Shown here: piece after piece, positions 1,416-14,029 of the stretch | Layout of the letters: each line of letters starts with the position of its first letter | How positions within the stretch are numbered: position 1 is the stretch's first letter | Source of the DNA: Ruminococcus sp. | Lineage (GTDB): Bacteria > Bacillota > Clostridia > Oscillospirales > Ruminococcaceae | Length of the DNA: 64,000 nt | Direction of reading: 5' to 3' | Assembly: GCA_021200415.1 (NCBI GenBank) | Contig: JAJQGO010000019.1 | Location: forward strand, 124,001 to 188,000 | The notes under the pieces: generated by a model | Database searches by the model: none | Told to the model about the DNA's origin: nothing | What the model saw: the letters and a program-made list of their open reading frames with translations, nothing else | Program-made: the position numbers and the translations under genes

Positions 1416-1474
1416 GCTGTATTTCAACAGCAAAAATTGTGCAGATATACAAAATTGAAAATAATTTTTTTCTT

Positions 1475-1496
1475 ATTCAACGTCTGAGCGTTGAAT
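1475..1496. promoter_or_regulatory. 8-bp inverted repeat upstream of the phage-like cluster
   Basis: ATTCAACG and CGTTGAAT are separated by six bases (TCTGAG), with no T-run after them. It lies about 70 bases before the first phage-like gene. It could be an operator or a transcript hairpin. Function is unknown. Confidence 0.4.
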
Positions 1497-1565
1497 TTGA
1501 CCTCTTTTCAGCCCTCTTATGAACGGTGCTTATCCGTCATGGACTACTGAAAGGAGGTTTTATTT

Positions 1566-2054
1566 ATGCCTGATTCAAATCTTAAACAAAAACGAAAAGC
1601 ATTTTGCTGCAGCTATGTGCTGCTGGGAAATGTGGAGGAGGCTGCGGTAAGAGCAGGCTTCAGCAGAGAATGCGCCCTTTCCGAAGGAGTCGCGTGTCTT
1701 GAATCCGCCGAGTGTAGGAGGCTTATTGCAAAGCTCAGAAATACTCTCGCGGACAGCGGAAATGTTATCTCAGGTCTGAAGCGACTTGCCTTCGGAAGCT
1801 GTACCGATGCGGTTTACCTTGTCTTCGCCGACGAGCTCCCACCTTCAAGCGTTATTTCAAATCTCGATCTGTTTAACGTGTCCGAGATAAAACGTGTGAA
1901 GGGCGGCGGAGTTGAGGTTAAGCTGTTCGACAGACAGAAGGCGCTGGAAAAGCTTTTTGAGTTCGAGAATACCTGTTCCGACCGCGGAAGCGCTGAAAGC
2001 CTTATTGAAGCGCTCACTAAAAATTCGGAGGAGGCAGGCTCTGTTGAGAATTAG
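1566..2054 (+). CDS. terS: Phage-type terminase small subunit
   Basis: 162 residues. The N terminus (KQKRKAFCCSYVLLGNVEEAAVRAGFS) has the helix-turn-helix pattern of Terminase_2-type small subunits, which bind phage DNA and recruit the large subunit for packaging. The middle part (FDRQKALEKLFEF) fits the oligomerisation helices of the family. Start ATG 1566 follows AAAGGAGG by 8 bases. It overlaps the large subunit by 11 bases, as in phage packaging operons. It is the first gene of a nine-gene same-strand cluster. The family assignment rests on the N-terminal pattern and on position. Confidence 0.75.
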   Translation: MPDSNLKQKRKAFCCSYVLLGNVEEAAVRAGFSRECALSEGVACLESAECRRLIAKLRNTLADSGNVISGLKRLAFGSCTDAVYLVFADELPPSSVISNLDLFNVSEIKRVKGGGVEVKLFDRQKALEKLFEFENTCSDRGSAESLIEALTKNSEEAGSVEN

Positions 2055-3294
2055 CTCTTTTTCCGAAAAGCAAAAAACCGCCATTAGCTGGTGGTCACGT
2101 CCCGCATATGCAGGCTATGACGCTGTCATCTGCGATGGAGCTGTCAGAAGCGGCAAGACGCTTTCCATGTCCTTGGGATTTGTTTTCTGGGCATCCGGTT
2201 CATTCAGCGGAGGCACGTTCGCCATGTGCGGCAAAACAATCACCTCTCTCCGCAGAAATGTTGTAACGCCGCTGCTTGATATGCTGCGAGGAATCGGCTT
2301 CACCTGCTGCGAAAGGGTAAGCGGAAATTATGTGGATATAACACTTCTCGGCAGAACGAATCGCTTTTATCTTTTCGGCGGCAAGGACGAAGGCTCTGCT
2401 TCTCTTATTCAGGGAATCACTCTTTCGGGAGTTTTTCTCGATGAGGTTGCGCTTATGCCGCGTTCCTTTGTGGAGCAGGCTCTTGCAAGATGCTCGGTCA
2501 GCGGCTCTAAGATGTGGTTCAACTGCAATCCCGATAATCCCTCTCACTGGTTTTACACGGAGTGGATAAAAAAGGCTGAGGAAAAACACGCCCTTTATCT
2601 CCACTTCACAATGGACGATAATCCTTCTCTTTCGGAAAAGCTGAAAAACCGCTATAAGCGGCTCTATTCCGGAAGCTTCTACGACCGCTTTGTTCTCGGT
2701 AAATGGACTGCCTCGGAGGGCGTCGTTTATCCTATGTTCAGCAGAGAGCGGCATACCTACAGCGGCGATGTGAGCTGTGAAAGATATGTTATTTCCTGCG
2801 ATTACGGAACTGTAAATCCGTCGTCATTCGGTCTGTGGGGCTTTTCGGAGGGAAAGTGGCTGCGTATACGTGAGTATTATTATTCCTCGAAGAGAGAGGG
2901 CATATCACGCACCGATGAGGAGCATTATCAGGCTCTTGAGGAGCTTGCGGGAACGCTGAAAATCGAAAAGGTTATTGTTGATCCGTCTGCGGCAAGTTTT
3001 ATTGAATGCATACGCAGACATAAGCGGTTCAGAGTTGTTAAGGCGCGCAACGATGTTATTACGGGCATAAGGAACGTCAGCGTTGCGCTGAAGCAGGATA
3101 AGCTGCTGATTAACGAATCGTGCAGGGATATTATTCGGGAATTTTCCCTTTATCGCTGGAATGAAAAATCCGCAGGCGATTTTCCGATAAAGGAAAACGA
3201 CCACGCAATGGACGATATGCGGTATTTCGTTTCGGAGATGCTTGCCGATAATGAGGCTGATGAATTCTTTGCGGTTTCGGTCGCAAGGGATTGA
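2044..3294 (+). CDS. terL: Phage-type terminase large subunit (Terminase_3/PBSX type)
   Basis: 416 residues from TTG 2044, which has GGAGGAGG about 8 bases upstream. An in-frame ATG at 1912 has no ribosome binding site and would overlap terS by 143 bases. The N-terminal ATPase has a Walker A variant (GAVRSGKTLS, near residue 40) and a Walker B (GVFLDEVALM). The C-terminal RNase H-like nuclease shows the expected acidic residues (CDYGT, VDPSAASF, DHAMDDMRYF). The enzyme packages and cuts DNA into a prohead. All catalytic motifs are intact, so the gene does not look decayed. Confidence 0.9.
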   Translation: MRISSFSEKQKTAISWWSRPAYAGYDAVICDGAVRSGKTLSMSLGFVFWASGSFSGGTFAMCGKTITSLRRNVVTPLLDMLRGIGFTCCERVSGNYVDITLLGRTNRFYLFGGKDEGSASLIQGITLSGVFLDEVALMPRSFVEQALARCSVSGSKMWFNCNPDNPSHWFYTEWIKKAEEKHALYLHFTMDDNPSLSEKLKNRYKRLYSGSFYDRFVLGKWTASEGVVYPMFSRERHTYSGDVSCERYVISCDYGTVNPSSFGLWGFSEGKWLRIREYYYSSKREGISRTDEEHYQALEELAGTLKIEKVIVDPSAASFIECIRRHKRFRVVKARNDVITGIRNVSVALKQDKLLINESCRDIIREFSLYRWNEKSAGDFPIKENDHAMDDMRYFVSEMLADNEADEFFAVSVARD

Positions 3295-3327
3295 CGCACC
3301 GTTCAGAATCACTTATAAGGAGGAAAA

Positions 3328-4491
3328 ATGAAACTGTTCAAAAAAAAGGAAAAATCCGCTGTGCAGATTGCTCCGGAGCTTTGTTCGGCTCAGAGATACA
3401 CTGAAGGGGATTTACGCCTGCCGCCTGCAATCGAGCCGTTTGAAAAGGAGCTGTACGACAGACTGAGATTTGCTGTTCCTGTAATAGATGCGGCTTTGAT
3501 GAAAATCGTCAGGCTTACGGGCGGCTTCAACGTCATCTGCTCGGACGAGCGATTTCAGGAGGAGCTTGACCTCTTTCTGGAAAATGTTCCGGTGGGACTT
3601 ACCGGAAAATCCTTGGGGGATTTTGTTGACAACTATCTCGACAGTCTGCTCACATACGGCAGCGCGGTGGGTGAAATTGTAATCGACAGCCGTGAAAACT
3701 GCATTGCCGGACTTTTTAACGGAGATATTTCGGCTGTCAATATTGTTTCGGGGGCTGATCCGCTTACACGTTCATATACAATGCGCGGTAAAAACGGCAG
3801 TCTCAGACCTGTTATTCATCCGGAGAGAATCCTGTACTCGACTCTTACGGGAGGACGCTCTCTTCTGAGAGGTCTGCCGGCGCTCAGCAGCATTCTGCTT
3901 CGCATTTATCAGTGCATAGGTCAGAATTTCGACCGTGCAGGCAATGTCCGCTATGCGGTCACATATAAGCCCTCCAAGGACAGCGGTGAGGCTGCGTATT
4001 CCCGCGAAAGGGCAATGCAGATTGCCAAGGAGTGGTCGGACGGTATGAATTCCGCAAAATACGGTCAGGTTAAGGATTTTGTTGCCGTAGGCGATATTGA
4101 TATTAAGGTAATCGGCGCTGAAAATCAGCTTTTCGATACCGAAATTCCTGTGCGTCAGCTTCTGGAGCAGATTGTGGCGAAGCTTTCGATTCCGCCCTTT
4201 CTGCTGGGACTCAATTGGTCATCCACGGAGAGAATGTCTTCCCAGCAGGCGGATATTCTCACCTCGGAGCTGGAGTATTACAGACGTATTCTTACTCCCG
4301 TTATACGTGATGTGGGAAACGCTTATCTCTGTTCAAGAGGAGCTGACGCGGTATGCCGTGTGGAGTGGGAAAACATAAATCTTCAGGACGAATCCGCGCT
4401 TGCGGAGGCACGTCTGAAAAACGCTCAGGCAAGGGAAATTGAACTCAGGCTTGAGGAAATTGAAAAGAAAAATATTTTGGAGGTATATTGA
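3328..4491 (+). CDS. Phage-type portal protein
   Basis: 387 residues. The sequence resembles phage portals: a lead-in of helices (LYDRLRFAVPVIDAALMKIVRLTGG), a segment LLTYGSAVGEIVID, and a C-terminal ERMSSQQADILTSELEYYRRIL helix followed by a charged coiled tail. Portals form a 12-mer ring at one capsid vertex, dock the terminase and pass DNA. Start ATG 3328 follows AAGGAGG. The end overlaps the RBS region of the capsid gene. Position after terL supports the call. The exact portal subfamily is not clear to me. Confidence 0.85.
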   Translation: MKLFKKKEKSAVQIAPELCSAQRYTEGDLRLPPAIEPFEKELYDRLRFAVPVIDAALMKIVRLTGGFNVICSDERFQEELDLFLENVPVGLTGKSLGDFVDNYLDSLLTYGSAVGEIVIDSRENCIAGLFNGDISAVNIVSGADPLTRSYTMRGKNGSLRPVIHPERILYSTLTGGRSLLRGLPALSSILLRIYQCIGQNFDRAGNVRYAVTYKPSKDSGEAAYSRERAMQIAKEWSDGMNSAKYGQVKDFVAVGDIDIKVIGAENQLFDTEIPVRQLLEQIVAKLSIPPFLLGLNWSSTERMSSQQADILTSELEYYRRILTPVIRDVGNAYLCSRGADAVCRVEWENINLQDESALAEARLKNAQAREIELRLEEIEKKNILEVY

Positions 4492-4493
4492 TT

Positions 4494-5453
4494 ATGTATA
4501 ACGATATTAAGCTTGAAAAGGGACTTTACAATCTTAGCGAAAAAAGCTTTACAGCAGCTCTCGAGGAGCTTGACCCGACAGCGAATTACTGCGGAACGCC
4601 TCTTGAAAATCTTGATGCCTATGAGCGTCAGCTCAAGAGATTCAACATCAGAATTTCAGGTAAGGAATGCGACCGTGTTGAGAAATTCTTTACCTCAACT
4701 GAAACAGCTGTTCTTTTTCCGGAATTTGTTTCAAGATGCATAAAAAAGGGCTTTGATGAAACGATTCTTTCATCTGTATGCGCCGCAAAAACAGTCTGCG
4801 GCTGCGGTCAGTATTTAGGCTGCGTTCTCGATGATTCGGCAGATTACACTACCGCGGATGAGGCAGCTGTTCTGCCGTCGGCAACGGTGAGAGAAAGCAC
4901 ATCAGCTACAGTTCTTGCGAAGTATGGCAGACTTGTAAGCGCATCATATGAGGCTATCCGCCAGCAGCGTCTTGATGTTTTCGGCGTTATGCTCAGAAGC
5001 ATTGGCGTAAAGCTTGCCGCATCAGTTACCAAAAAGGCGGTTGAGGTTCTTGCTGCCGACGCAGAGGAAATTACGGCTGCTTCTCTTACATATGCGGATC
5101 TTGCCAAGCTTTACGGCGAATTTGACTGCTTTAGCATGAATGCGCTTATTGCATCTCCCGAAGCGGCTTCAACGATTGTCGCAATGGAGGAGGTTGCCGA
5201 GCTTTCAGCTGACAGCGCGGGAAGAATTGTGCTTCCCTTTGGCGCGGAGCTTATTAAAACGTCAGCTGCGGAGGATAACACTATCATTGGTATTGATAAG
5301 GATTTTGCCCTTGAATTTATCACAAGCTCCGATCTTATTATGGAAACGGACAAGATGATTGACCGTCAGCTTGATCAGATTACGGTTTCGATTACCTGTG
5401 GATTCAGAAAGATTACTCCCGATGCCGTTAAGGTGCTTAAAATAACCGAATAA
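4494..5453 (+). CDS. Phage-type major capsid protein, HK97-like
   Basis: 319 residues from ATG 4494, 10 bases after GGAGG. A TTG at 4488 would leave too little spacing. The segment AYERQLKRFNIRISG...VEKFFTST...VLFPEFVSRCI near residues 45-85 and the C-terminal half (SMNALIASPEAASTIV, then IIGIDKDFALEFI) fit HK97-fold capsid proteins of clostridial phages. It would form the icosahedral shell. There is no long N-terminal scaffold-like delta domain. The gene precedes the putative protease, opposite to the usual protease-then-capsid order. Confidence 0.75.
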   Translation: MYNDIKLEKGLYNLSEKSFTAALEELDPTANYCGTPLENLDAYERQLKRFNIRISGKECDRVEKFFTSTETAVLFPEFVSRCIKKGFDETILSSVCAAKTVCGCGQYLGCVLDDSADYTTADEAAVLPSATVRESTSATVLAKYGRLVSASYEAIRQQRLDVFGVMLRSIGVKLAASVTKKAVEVLAADAEEITAASLTYADLAKLYGEFDCFSMNALIASPEAASTIVAMEEVAELSADSAGRIVLPFGAELIKTSAAEDNTIIGIDKDFALEFITSSDLIMETDKMIDRQLDQITVSITCGFRKITPDAVKVLKITE

Positions 5454-5460
5454 AATGTCA

Positions 5461-5479
5461 GGACGCCGCTAAGGCGTCC
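5461..5479 (+). promoter_or_regulatory. Hairpin between capsid and protease genes
   Basis: GGACGCC and GGCGTCC form a 7-bp stem with a five-base loop. No T-run follows, so it is more likely a message-stability or processing element than a terminator. It could lower expression of downstream genes relative to the capsid gene. Confidence 0.5.
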
Positions 5480-5533
5480 GTGCATTATAACGCACAGCGC
5501 TACAGGTGCGGAGCTGACTTGAAGGAGGAAACT

Positions 5534-6385
5534 ATGGATAACGAACAGCTTGAAAAAATAAATAAATTTACTCGTAGAGAGCTTACGGCTGACGATGTTT
5601 ATGTTTTCAGCGTGATTCTTTGCGATAACGATATTGACAGGGACGGCGAGTGCTTTTCGGACGATGCCCTTGAGGAGCTGAAAAAGCTTTTTGTGGGCAA
5701 AACGGGAATTTCCGATCACAACGCAAGCTCGTCGAACCAGAACGCCAGAATTTTTGATACGGAGGTTGTCACGGATAATACACGCACCACAAAATACGGC
5801 AGCGTCTACAAATATCTTAAAGGCTCGGTTTATATGGTCAGAACTGATGAAAACAAGAGCCTTATTGCCGAAATTGACGGCGGAATCAAAAAGGAGGTCA
5901 GCATTTCATGTACCGCCGCACAGCGGATATGCTCCGTATGCGGCTGCGACAAAAGCAAAACAGCCTGCGCCCACGTCAAGGGGAAAATATATAACGGCAA
6001 GCAGAGCTATACGATTCTCAGGAACATTACCGATGCCTATGAATGGAGCTTTGTGGCTGTTCCTGCACAGGTCAACGCAGGCGTGACAAAGAAATTTTCA
6101 TCAGATGGGGATTTCACCTCAAAGGGCGTTTCCGCCGATGTTGATGAAATTGAGGCTGCCGCAGCGGAGCTTCGCCGTGACATACGCAGGCTTGCTTTCT
6201 TTGCGGGAGGAAAATCCGCTGCCGATACGGCATCGCTTATGGCGGAAAAAATGAATACCCGACAGCTTATTGCGCTGAAAAAATCCTTTGAAAACAAAAG
6301 CTCCGGCAGCCGCTTCGGAGTTGAGGTTCAGCTTGCGGCGGAGAATGATGCGGAGACTGAGAATGCGGATTTTTCCATGAAATAG
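5534..6385 (+). CDS. Putative prohead protease with cysteine-rich insert
   Basis: 283 residues from ATG 5534, which follows AAGGAGG by 7 bases. An upstream ATG at 5480 lacks a ribosome binding site. The core (FSVILCDNDIDRDGECFSDDALEELKKLFVGKTGISDHN, later KKEVSISC and AYEWSFVAVPAQVNAGV) resembles clostridial phage prohead protease/maturation proteins. His in SDHN and Ser in EVSIS are plausible catalytic residues. An insert CSVCGCDKSKTACAHVKGK could bind zinc. The C terminus (about residues 200-283) is helical and may act as internal scaffold. It would process or assemble the capsid made from the gene before it. Protease function is inferred. Confidence 0.6.
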   Translation: MDNEQLEKINKFTRRELTADDVYVFSVILCDNDIDRDGECFSDDALEELKKLFVGKTGISDHNASSSNQNARIFDTEVVTDNTRTTKYGSVYKYLKGSVYMVRTDENKSLIAEIDGGIKKEVSISCTAAQRICSVCGCDKSKTACAHVKGKIYNGKQSYTILRNITDAYEWSFVAVPAQVNAGVTKKFSSDGDFTSKGVSADVDEIEAAAAELRRDIRRLAFFAGGKSAADTASLMAEKMNTRQLIALKKSFENKSSGSRFGVEVQLAAENDAETENADFSMK

Positions 6386-6398
6386 GAGGTGACGGAAA

Positions 6399-6779
6399 AT
6401 GAATATTGAAACGGTTAAATCTATCTTTCAGCTTATTTCGGGTGAGGAGGATACGGAAACGTATCTTCCGTTTATTGAGCTTGCGGTTCTCGAAACGGAA
6501 AAAATGCTTACGGATGGAGCGGATACGGAGGACGCACGTCTTGATTTCCTTTGCGCGGCTATTGCGAATTTTCGCCTTCAGCAGGCTAATTCCGCAAGGG
6601 ACAGATCGGAATCCGTTTACGCGGGAAGGCTTGTATCCTCGTCGGACAGCGGCAGCGCTCTTGAATTTGCCGAAAAGCTGCTTCTGGATTACATGAATCT
6701 CTGCGAGGATCTGATTGATTCACGCACGTTTGTGTTTATGAGCTTCGGCTCGGAGGGGAGGTTGATTGAAAATGCTTAA
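6399..6779 (+). CDS. Phage head-tail connector-like protein
   Basis: 126 residues, mainly helical and acidic (YLPFIELAVLETEKML, then LDFLCAAIANFRLQQA). Size, helix content and position right after capsid genes match the adaptor proteins (YqbG/gp6 type) that bind under the portal. Start ATG 6399 has AGGAGGTGACG upstream. It overlaps the next gene by 8 bases. Sequence similarity by eye is modest, so the role rests mostly on gene order. Confidence 0.55.
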   Translation: MNIETVKSIFQLISGEEDTETYLPFIELAVLETEKMLTDGADTEDARLDFLCAAIANFRLQQANSARDRSESVYAGRLVSSSDSGSALEFAEKLLLDYMNLCEDLIDSRTFVFMSFGSEGRLIENA

Positions 6780-7182
6780 AGCAATTCTCGAAAAAATTGA
6801 ACAGGAGCTGGAAAACAACGGCGTAGAGAGGATTTATACAGCCTTTGACTACATCTCCATAGAGAAAAAGGGAAAGGAAATTTTTACGGTTATCGGCATT
6901 GACAGCTTTGAAAGCTCCGCACCGATTTATTCGGAATCCGTAATTTATCTGCCCTTTAAGGCGGAGGCTGCGGTTTCTCTTGTTGCTCCTGAAAGCTTTA
7001 CAATGGCGGAGCTGTACGATTACTTTGACGGCAGTATTCTTCCTGCCCTGATGAATATGACGAGCCTCACCTGTTCGCTCAGAGATCTCACCATGAAAAA
7101 CGACACGAACATCAACAGGCTGGTACTCAAGGTTAAATTTTCGGTTACGGGCATAACACGTCTTGAAAGGAGCAGCTCATGA
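6772..7182 (+). CDS. Tail-terminator-like phage protein
   Basis: 136 residues from ATG 6772, 10 bases after GGGGAGG (a TTG at 6766 is too close). The fold looks mixed alpha/beta with an N-terminal helix (LKAILEKIEQELENNGVERIY) and many strands. In PBSX-like phages a gene of this size after the connector encodes the YqbJ/XkdJ tail terminator. Function is inferred from order and length. The stop overlaps the next start (ATGA). Confidence 0.45.
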   Translation: MLKAILEKIEQELENNGVERIYTAFDYISIEKKGKEIFTVIGIDSFESSAPIYSESVIYLPFKAEAAVSLVAPESFTMAELYDYFDGSILPALMNMTSLTCSLRDLTMKNDTNINRLVLKVKFSVTGITRLERSSS

Positions 7183-7586
7183 GCAGTTCGACAGAGGTAT
7201 CTCTCAAGGAATCATATCCTGTCCGCATTGGCGCGCTTTTGATGTACTGTGAGCATTTCAAGGCAGTCGGAACAAAAAATCTTGCCGAGAAAACAACGGT
7301 AAGCGGCGATACGTTTTTCTCCAACATGAATAAGAGAGCGTTGAAAATTACCTTTGAGGGCAGAATTTATGACGAATATTTTCCTCTCAGAATGCTGCTT
7401 TATACGGATTCCTTTATGAACGGGGACGGCAAATGCACAGTGGATTACAGGGGGATTACCTTTACCGAATGCCGTGTACAGACATTTACTGTCGAGGATA
7501 AGGGGGAGGATTACATTCACGCCTCCATAACGCTTGTAACTGCCGAAAATACGACTCAGAGCGAGGAGGAAACAGATGGAGGTTAA
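7179..7586 (+). CDS. Tail-tube-like phage protein
   Basis: 135 residues with beta-rich content (ALKITFEGRIYDEYFPLRMLLYTDSF, YRGITFTECRVQTFTVEDKGEDYIHASITLVT). Its size and position before the hub-like protein fit a small tail tube protein such as XkdM or a tube initiator. I do not recognise a precise family. ATG 7179 overlaps the previous stop, which suggests translational coupling. Confidence 0.4.
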   Translation: MSSSTEVSLKESYPVRIGALLMYCEHFKAVGTKNLAEKTTVSGDTFFSNMNKRALKITFEGRIYDEYFPLRMLLYTDSFMNGDGKCTVDYRGITFTECRVQTFTVEDKGEDYIHASITLVTAENTTQSEEETDGG

Positions 7587-8511
7587 AATTGCGGTAAAGC
7601 GCATGACAGGAGCTGTTTTTGAGGAAACAAAAATAATATCCTTTACCTTTGTCAAGGATGCCTATATCCCCTACACATCTGTAACTGCCCGAATCTATGC
7701 CGAAGAGGAGGATTATATGTCCGTTGCGGAGATTTTTCTCTATGTGGGGGATTATCTTGTTCATCACGGACTGGTTGATACCCTTGAGGTAACGGAAACA
7801 AACGGCGTGAAAATAGCCACTCTTGCGTCAAGGGGATTTACCTCGCTTCTTTGTCAGAATCAGATTGAGCCGGGAATGATTACGGGAATTTCCATAAACG
7901 ATCTCATGGACAGCTATTATGACCTGCCGTACGTCACCCACGAGGACAACTCCGATCAAAGCGGATATATTTATGTGAAAAGCAATTCCTCCATGTGGGA
8001 TGGCGTTGTTAATCTTTCATACAAGCTCAATAAAATATATCCCTATATTCGCGGAACGAACTGCGTAAGAATAACTGCCGAATCAGATCCGTCGGTTTTT
8101 TCATATGACGAATCGCAGCTGACGGAATCGGGACTGGCTTACAATTTCAAGCGAATGATAAGCAATTTCAACATGGCGGATATAAGCGGAGAATACGGCA
8201 GCTATACATTGGAGGATACGGTAGTCACGAACAGGAAAATTGTGCGTCATAAGGTTTTTGAGCTTGACAGGCAGTTTCTCAGCGATCCGCAGGAGGCGCT
8301 GAATTACCGTGACAAATACGCAAACCGTGGGCATTTCAGATATTTTTGCAGATATTCGGGCTATAGCGGCGAGGACTTGTGCGATATGGTAAGCTTCGGC
8401 TATGCGCAGAATAAGCGTATCAGCAGAATTGAAATAATCGGGGACAGCACGGGAGTCGATACGGAGCTTAGCGTTTACTATGATGGCTTCTATTCGGGAG
8501 GAACGCTTTAG
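7576..8511 (+). CDS. Tail hub-like protein (XkdQ / late control D-like)
   Basis: 311 residues. An N-terminal beta domain (SFTFVKDAYIPYTSVTARIY) is followed by a middle domain with ISINDLMDSYYDLPY and a C-terminal domain ending SRIEIIGDSTGVDTELSVYYDG. This matches the three-part layout and length of XkdQ/gpD-type hub proteins of contractile tails (about 325 residues in PBSX). It overlaps the previous gene by 11 bases and has GAGGAGG upstream. It is the last gene of the cluster, and no sheath, tape measure, baseplate wedge or fibre gene follows. The hub assignment is tentative. Confidence 0.5.
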   Translation: MEVKIAVKRMTGAVFEETKIISFTFVKDAYIPYTSVTARIYAEEEDYMSVAEIFLYVGDYLVHHGLVDTLEVTETNGVKIATLASRGFTSLLCQNQIEPGMITGISINDLMDSYYDLPYVTHEDNSDQSGYIYVKSNSSMWDGVVNLSYKLNKIYPYIRGTNCVRITAESDPSVFSYDESQLTESGLAYNFKRMISNFNMADISGEYGSYTLEDTVVTNRKIVRHKVFELDRQFLSDPQEALNYRDKYANRGHFRYFCRYSGYSGEDLCDMVSFGYAQNKRISRIEIIGDSTGVDTELSVYYDGFYSGGTL

Positions 8512-13886: not shown

Positions 13887-14018
13887 AGAAAAAATCCCAT
13901 CGTTATCGACAGGATTACCAAAAGCTTTATTGCGTCCTATCGGTCAAGCATTAGCACCTTACCGGCTGGCAGGTTGCTGTGCGGTCATAGGGCTTGCTCC
14001 CTCGCGCACTCTTGATAG
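13887..14018 (-). promoter_or_regulatory. S-box family (SAM) riboswitch lacking P4, with expression platform
   Basis: Aptamer 14018-13937 read on the minus strand: P1 arms CTATC/GATAG; AAGAG; a P2 with TGCG/CGCA and the kink-turn-like GAGGGA...CCCTATGA; GCAACC; P3 ACCT/AGGT; GGTGCTAA. These match the SAM-I core. The P2 loop CAAGC can pair with GCTTG after P3, the usual pseudoknot. P4 is missing, because the pseudoknot strand runs straight into P1. This resembles SAM-I/IV or SAM-IV types. A terminator (AATCCTGTCG-ATAA-CGATGGGATT then TTTTC, 13915-13887) follows. CGATAGGA of P1 can pair with TCCTGTCG of the terminator as antiterminator, so binding should switch the gene off. Confidence 0.85.
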
Positions 14019-14029
14019 TCTATGCATAT

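Follow-up and report, generated by a model that had tools for sequence, protein, structure and literature searches.

A nine-gene packaging and head block

We analyzed a 64,000-nucleotide stretch of DNA (the window: positions 124,001 to 188,000 of contig JAJQGO010000019.1, assembly GCA_021200415.1) from a Ruminococcus sp. whose genome comprises 2.35 Mb in 64 contigs and whose genus includes Ruminococcus flavefaciens. Between positions 1566 and 8511 the window carries nine phage-type genes, which an earlier note made from the letters alone had described as intact and closely packed; indeed, all nine frames are open, lie on the plus strand, and adjoin closely or overlap. This block is a domesticated and actively maintained DNA-packaging gene set, and we consider it probable (roughly 0.7) that it is a stub-tailed, gene transfer agent (GTA)-like system that was domesticated before the genus radiated.

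The first four genes match family profiles, in agreement with the identities first proposed for them: the terminase small subunit TerS (1566-2054, 162 aa; PF03592 (Terminase_2), 5.7e-13, residues 7-133), the terminase large subunit TerL (2044-3294; NCBIfam TIGR01547, 5.6e-62), the portal protein (3328-4491, 387 aa; phrog_30703, 1.5e-134), and the major capsid protein (4494-5453; PF25209 (Phage_capsid_4), 3e-10; phrog_3922, major head protein, 3e-62). TerL scores 210 bits against TIGR01547 (cut-off 105), which places it in the PBSX family of terminases. Its ATPase and nuclease motifs, which we take to be Walker A, Walker B, CNP, and three acidic nuclease motifs, show at least 97% conservation across 91 aligned loci, bearing out the claim that the catalytic motifs are complete. 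Gene 5 (5534-6385; phrog_16951, function unknown, 2.7e-93) is XkdF-like, and its TGIxxH and GIKKEVSisC motifs suggest that it is probably an S78-like prohead protease, in line with the protease first proposed; the His and Ser of these motifs, presumably the catalytic pair of S78 prohead proteases, are kept at 95% or more over 90 aligned loci. An iterated gene 5 profile drifted onto the capsid, and the resulting double assignments were ignored. Start codons were chosen by ribosome-binding sites (likely TTG 2044 for TerL, ATG 4494 for the capsid, and ATG 5534 for the protease).

The remaining four proteins gave no match above cut-off in family searches. The head-tail adaptor (6399-6779) is assigned by position alone, with a homologue at the equivalent place in 89 out of 92 loci, so that the connector of the earlier note stands as a placement and lacks a family match. 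The three proteins called tail-type could be resolved further: a tail terminator of gpU fold, XkdJ-like (6766-7182; AlphaFold pLDDT 92.5; Foldseek to lambda gpU, 2.3e-8), a tail-tube-fold ring protein, either tube or tube-initiator (7179-7586; AlphaFold pLDDT 89.9; Foldseek), and a hub protein of XkdQ type (7576-8511), which aligns by hhalign (98%, 2.3e-13) with XkdQ-position proteins, one of which matches the phrog_177 baseplate hub. The hub profile found no match among the sequences of solved structures.

The block is bordered by housekeeping-type genes, as originally noted, with the C-terminus of ATP synthase epsilon (PF00401, 3.9e-19) and a lipoprotein-like gene upstream, and FeoA (3.5e-17) and a GlmU-like protein with NTP-transferase and hexapeptide domains downstream. 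In open reading frames read by eye, with family searches covering the nine block genes and some neighbours, we saw no integrase, repressor, lysis, sheath, tape measure, or replication gene at the locus, nor a contractile tail module (sheath, tape measure, baseplate) beside the head genes. Packaging and head genes thus stand without adjoining replication, integration, or immunity genes (neighbours partly by eye), an arrangement that marks GTAs. The absence of most phage functions described by the earlier note holds for the locus itself; elsewhere in the genome, candidates for lysis and fibre genes lie under the same leader (see below).

Retention, selection, and inheritance across the genus

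To see how widely the block is kept, we searched related genomes and found the hub gene in 117 out of 125 genus genomes and in 67 out of 68 high-quality ones. There was one match in 114 genomes, and two partial pieces on separate contigs in the other three (G087, G109, and G136). Of 36 genus genomes, the window's own among them, 31 carry the portal, versus 2 of 24 genomes of other families. All nine genes stood in the same order at 28 of the 30 genus loci fetched, the exceptions being one locus with N in the capsid (L032) and one that stops before the hub (L041), so the block does recur in related genomes and is not scattered as decaying remnants, an outcome that the earlier note had wished to see checked. 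The expected chromosomal position was recovered in part: feoA lies directly 3' of the block in 12 of the 30 loci, and the flanks differ elsewhere, with no non-block neighbour common to most loci (the next commonest clusters occur at 11/33 and 10/33). In the retrieved stretches, at most 20 kb long, a full prophage was not found as the usual neighbour. The matches listed in hub protein searches (best 120 of 313 and best 120 of 368) included Ruminococcus sp. and R. flavefaciens; R. callidus was not named among these best matches, which is uninformative on R. callidus. Against 50,697 phage records the hub gave no match at E 0.01, and in IMG/VR a portal relative was found on 13 contigs, 12 of them shorter than 8 kb.

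The genes are under purifying selection, as their unbroken frames had led the earlier note to argue. Median pairwise dN/dS values, computed over genus loci and outside relatives from pairs with dS 0.1-1 (30 to 71 pairs per gene), were 0.058 for TerL, 0.063 for the portal, 0.109 for the capsid, 0.140 for the adaptor, 0.154 for the protease, 0.172 for the hub, 0.190 for TerS, 0.257 for the terminator, and 0.271 for the tube-fold protein, the highest of the nine; values above 1 occurred in single pairs for the adaptor, terminator, tube-fold protein, and hub. Moreover, block distances follow those of the host genes polC plus rpoB (Mantel r = 0.80, 0 of 2000 shuffles as high, 26 genomes), and the two trees have 14 of 23 splits in common, compared with 9 between polC and rpoB. 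The congruence of block and host is at least as strong as that between two host genes. These comparisons took in 26 out of 27 genomes, G015 being left out for its fragmentary rpoB; with G015 included, polC versus rpoB gave r = -0.01, polC plus rpoB versus the block r = 0.30 (91/2000 shuffles), and polC alone versus the block r = 0.76 (0/2000). Inheritance of the block is largely vertical, and long vertical inheritance with purifying selection in the host lineage, on which a third marker, ppdK, disagreed (see below), is a further hallmark of GTAs.

These findings bear on the idea that the block is a recent prophage remnant retained by chance. Such a remnant would explain phage-derived genes with most phage functions missing and a few interrupted copies, yet it is contradicted by genus-wide retention, low dN/dS, and a history congruent with that of the host; we therefore reject it and give it a practically negligible chance. 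Retention, order, selection, and host congruence instead support one of the two proposals of the earlier note, a domesticated particle-forming system such as the core of a GTA.

A leader common to head, fibre, and lysis operons

Upstream of terS we found a conserved stretch (1437-1561) comprising a TTGTGCA-N3-ATACAAA element, a U-tract, a hairpin, and an anti-Shine-Dalgarno arm. The element (1437-1453, plus strand) emerged from a comparison of the upstream regions of 46 loci, has varied copies before terS in most genus loci, and is likely a promoter or operator. The structured leader (model R1; 1460-1561, plus strand), supported by alignment, pair counts, and predicted fold, contains hairpin H1, which pairs 1475-1482 with 1489-1496, and the arm 1500-1511, which can pair with 1547-1558, the segment that holds the terS ribosome-binding site. 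The predicted probability that this site is unpaired in the window leader is 0.00. Across 40 leaders the site was predicted to be closed (unpaired <0.1) in 22 and was more closed than the shuffled-sequence mean in 32. The structure, taken from the window's own fold, was then compared with alignments: in alignment A3 it beats all 500 shuffles on paired cells, both-side changes, and covariation, as well as all slid versions, and in A6, a set of 28 leaders of other operons whose alignment had been fitted to the structure model, it again beats shuffled and slid versions. With RNAalifold the leader gave no consensus structure, and Rfam 15 gave no match to the terS leader at the gathering score or at E up to 1. 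The leader may have a regulatory role.

To locate further copies, we searched 15 genus genomes with model R1, which was made from block leaders alone, and recovered 15/15 block leaders, 14 of those being model members. The window genome has two matches at E 0.1 or better, each before a phage operon. The one outside the block (G000:C2:24114-24202, E 0.003) lies directly before five genes, which encode a protein of an ~80-aa family, a 63-aa protein, a fibre-like protein (phrog_27373, 1.6e-5), a holin (PF05105, 1.2e-39), and an M23-LysM endolysin (7.3e-17). Since this operon is flanked (by eye) by an AraC-type regulator on its upstream side and by ABC transporters on the other, it is not part of a prophage. 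Fibre and lysis candidates at another chromosomal site, here G000:C2, are again as found in GTAs. In 12 of the 15 genomes the leader stands before an operon of fibre, receptor-binding, or holin-lysin type (G000, G007, G008, G012, G013, G015, G019, G025, G026, G030, G031, and G034; gene types partly by eye), the case in G013 being weak (E 0.05); G002 has a weaker match before a holin, and in G011 and G028 no leader was seen before such an operon. At four loci (L271, L266, L268, and L267) the leader is followed by a receptor-binding-like family, M-EIYAxGKNIPTYxFGxLFVQGE (phrog_25888 for L266), with a second gene of GTGxxxDPYII type in three of them.

The association also holds when approached from the operons. 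A profile of the ~80-aa family (A4), built from 8 proteins found via the leader, detected members in 46 of 70 genomes, and a leader match lay upstream at 28 of the 30 A4 loci returned, in 27 at no more than ~60 bases; at L346 the match lies before a holin gene that is first in the operon. Excluding the 7 loci that are seeds of A4, the leader was present at 21 of 23 (missing at L326 and L344). Leader matches occurred at 7 of 30 holin loci. Among controls, there was a match at 1 of 59 loci of ppdK, polC, and rpoB (59 of 90 fetched were used; the match is in G007), and of 15 genomes from outside the genus a single one, G053, gave a match (E 0.024).

The leader might alternatively be a dispersed repeat or a common promoter region and no joint regulator, a view that is compatible with a GTA-like block and to which we give about a one-in-four standing among our expectations for the leader. 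Three genomes (G007, G008, and G019) hold 49 further matches, of which 33 were examined; three stand before fibre operons, and the others mostly sit at gene ends, facing a gene on the opposite strand. The lack of an RNAalifold consensus and the strong closure of the site in just 22 of the 40 leaders point the same way. A few matches, in G002, G013, G019, G026, and G030, precede genes that by eye are of replication or mobile-element type. Together with the extra copies, these indicate that the leader may have spread as a repeat or may also exist as free-standing RNAs. A repeat does not readily explain why both matches in the window genome lie upstream of phage operons, why the leader stands at 21 of 23 independent fibre loci, or why controls are nearly empty. 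These further matches in the three genomes (L247, L248, L260, L261, and L277-L313), mostly at the 3' ends of genes, carry the hairpin and TTTCAGCCCCCTTATAGAAAG.

Since head operon and fibre/lysis operons carry the same leader, able to hide the ribosome-binding site, they may be switched on together. We tentatively propose, at somewhat less than even odds, that Ruminococcus carries a core GTA with a stub tail, that its head genes and the fibre, holin, and endolysin operons at scattered sites are joined into a single regulon through this previously undescribed leader RNA, which would close the first ribosome-binding site until release, and that this regulon accounts for the 4.6-kb packaging reported in R. 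callidus (Borodovich et al., 2026; PMC12946183).

Possible tail loss and comparison with known systems

To trace how the block may have lost its tail, we searched the order for TerL. At E 1e-100, 114 of 395 genomes and 57 of 172 genera yielded strong relatives; some genomes hold second copies, which suggests that a portion of the relatives are ordinary prophages. A second, more distant TerL (53%) on contig C10 of G028, a genome that also carries the block, has an operon-II-type holin ~16 kb away on the same contig and is probably a real prophage. The relatives were read mostly by eye, with some proteins checked against families. Acetanaerobacterium elongatum (L118) has TerL, portal, protease, and capsid homologous to those of the Ruminococcus block and, unlike it, a sheath, a tube-position protein, a LysM protein, and baseplate J. 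The faecal-sample scaffold MT835769 (L138) has the same four homologues (by eye) and, again unlike the block, a sheath, with tube and LysM protein by position. The interval from tube to LysM gene is 0.8 kb in L118 and 1.2 kb in L138 and holds no long same-strand frame, so a tape measure of usual length cannot fit. L061 and L120 lack the sheath and keep a baseplate J-like gene, and in Clostridium methylpentosum (L117) the block ends at the hub, with a response-regulator gene beside it. The Ruminococcus block no longer has the sheath, LysM part, baseplate, or spike, and in it the order of capsid and protease is reversed. The series looks as if a contractile tail had been reduced step by step to a stub.

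Of 60 genus genomes, 59 lack baseplate J. The one that has it is the window's own, where it lies on contigs C4 and C36 (L064 and L065), apart from the block, and probably belongs to a separate contractile prophage. These observations matter for the idea, raised by the earlier note, that the block is a satellite element borrowing the tails of resident phages. Head genes without a complete tail, with lysis and fibre genes elsewhere, would be expected of a satellite; however, the block occurs as one copy in 67 of 68 high-quality genomes and is inherited with its host, no integrase or replication gene was seen at the locus, and nearly all genomes lack the baseplate J that a contractile helper, if there were one, would bring. 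With no gene for integration, replication, or mobility seen at the locus and a host-congruent history, we reject the satellite, to which we leave only a very small chance.

At least 14 of 91 loci encode a TerS that lacks, as judged by eye, the N-terminal segment, which we take to be the DNA-binding part in the TerS family; these are L071, L072, L092, L103, and L116 and nine members of a rabbit-sample clade (L094, L095, L097-L100, L102, L105, and L123); the window TerS keeps it. The segment has apparently been lost several times with the rest of the block present.

Borodovich et al. (2026; PMC12946183) describe short, seemingly random pieces of chromosome that are packaged, with lengths of 4.6 kb in R. 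callidus and 8.4-8.9 kb in Faecalibacterium and Gemmiger; their gene search covered four genomes, R. callidus not included, and assigned an operon in Faecalibacterium only. Among the papers listed in a literature search for a described Ruminococcus system, this was the one publication on point. The Faecalibacterium system (FpGTA) resembles the block in a head operon with TerS, TerL, portal, and capsid, in fibre, receptor-binding, holin, and endolysin genes that make up an operon of their own, and in having no visible long tail; its TerS is reported to be without an obvious DNA-binding domain, similar to some Ruminococcus members. This comparison is one of architecture, from the published text, not of sequence. 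The Ruminococcus system differs from FpGTA in its genus, its 7-kb nine-gene head operon, the baseplate J not found, and the leader common to both operons. The block is a candidate gene set for the R. callidus packaging. A 7-kb head operon cannot fit a 4.6-kb particle, so the particle would not carry its own genes, as expected for a GTA.

Among other known systems, PBSX of Bacillus subtilis gives its name to the TerL family to which the TerL of the block belongs. The XkdF-, XkdJ-, and XkdQ-like proteins of the block presumably stand in an order comparable to that in PBSX. Unlike PBSX, the block has no sheath, LysM protein, tape measure, or baseplate, is inherited genus-wide, and has its lysis genes elsewhere. 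PBSX packages host DNA in 13-kb pieces (PMC7667829, PMC12946183), and one could suppose that the conserved Ruminococcus particle likewise packages DNA without delivering it, either killing relatives or being useful through its release itself. This would fit the PBSX-family TerL, the lack of baseplate J in 59 of 60 genomes, and the fact that neither needle nor tape measure was seen at the locus; whether FpGTA delivers its packaged DNA is likewise left open in PMC12946183. A killing tail is unlikely, as the sheath and baseplate that it requires are missing and the packaging genes are the most constrained by dN/dS, and receptor-binding operons retained under the same leader argue against non-delivery in general. 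We regard non-delivery as improbable, though as deserving more weight than a satellite or a remnant.

The GTA-like reading is also in line with RcGTA of Rhodobacter capsulatus in general features, not in sequence relation: host-inherited head genes, scattered helper operons, and (in some loci of the block) a small terminase subunit without a DNA-binding part. Unlike the block, RcGTA has a siphovirus-type tail with a tape measure. Related head genes (portal identity 44-50%) occur on five human faecal scaffolds deposited as Bacteriophage sp., and host genes (by eye) lie beside the head genes on all four that were fetched. If these scaffolds come from particle preparations, an assumption on which the records are silent, this would fit packaged chromosome. 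L139, L140, and L141 are other versions of the block beside host genes, deposited as phage; in L139 rpoA and rpsD adjoin (by eye) and the block stops after the terminator-position gene.

We propose that TerS and TerL would fill a protease-matured capsid through the portal, and that the adaptor, terminator, tube-fold ring, and hub would form a very short tail without sheath, tape measure, or baseplate J. The ~80-aa protein, the fibre or receptor-binding protein, the holin, and the endolysin would be supplied for attachment and release from the separate operons, which may serve the block's particle. A few cells would switch on both kinds of operon, burst, and release particles holding short pieces of host DNA, which might then be delivered. 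This GTA-like reading is supported by single-copy near-universality, fixed order, purifying selection, host congruence, kept TerL and protease motifs, the absence of baseplate J, a common leader with few control hits, the shortened TerS, and the published 4.6-kb packaging. Several points weigh against it. In every genome that bears the block the system is known from genes alone, the block is not established here in R. callidus, and the crossing of the envelope by DNA without a tape measure is not accounted for. TerL or portal frames are interrupted in 4 of 92 loci (L041, L073, L120, and L124), a single stop lies inside 5 of 33 portal matches, and three genomes carry leader-like copies without a phage gene in addition to the few before mobile-element-type genes. 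Over 17 genomes, distances of ppdK do not track those of the block (r = 0.14, a value reached in 922 of 5000 shuffles); this marker, with a mean difference of 7%, was dropped as uninformative and polC plus rpoB were used.

In the rumen and gut, fibre is degraded in the main by bacteria that include the Ruminococcus species. If the core DNA-packaging system is as proposed, they would possess a built-in, genus-wide route of gene exchange, and the block would offer candidate genes for a packaging event that was detected in human stool and has had no genes assigned to it. The leader would also provide a sequence handle for locating the dispersed components of such systems, which is usually the most difficult part of the work. 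Elsewhere in the window, an ordinary SAM riboswitch lies at 13934-14021 on the minus strand (RF00162, 55.9 bits).

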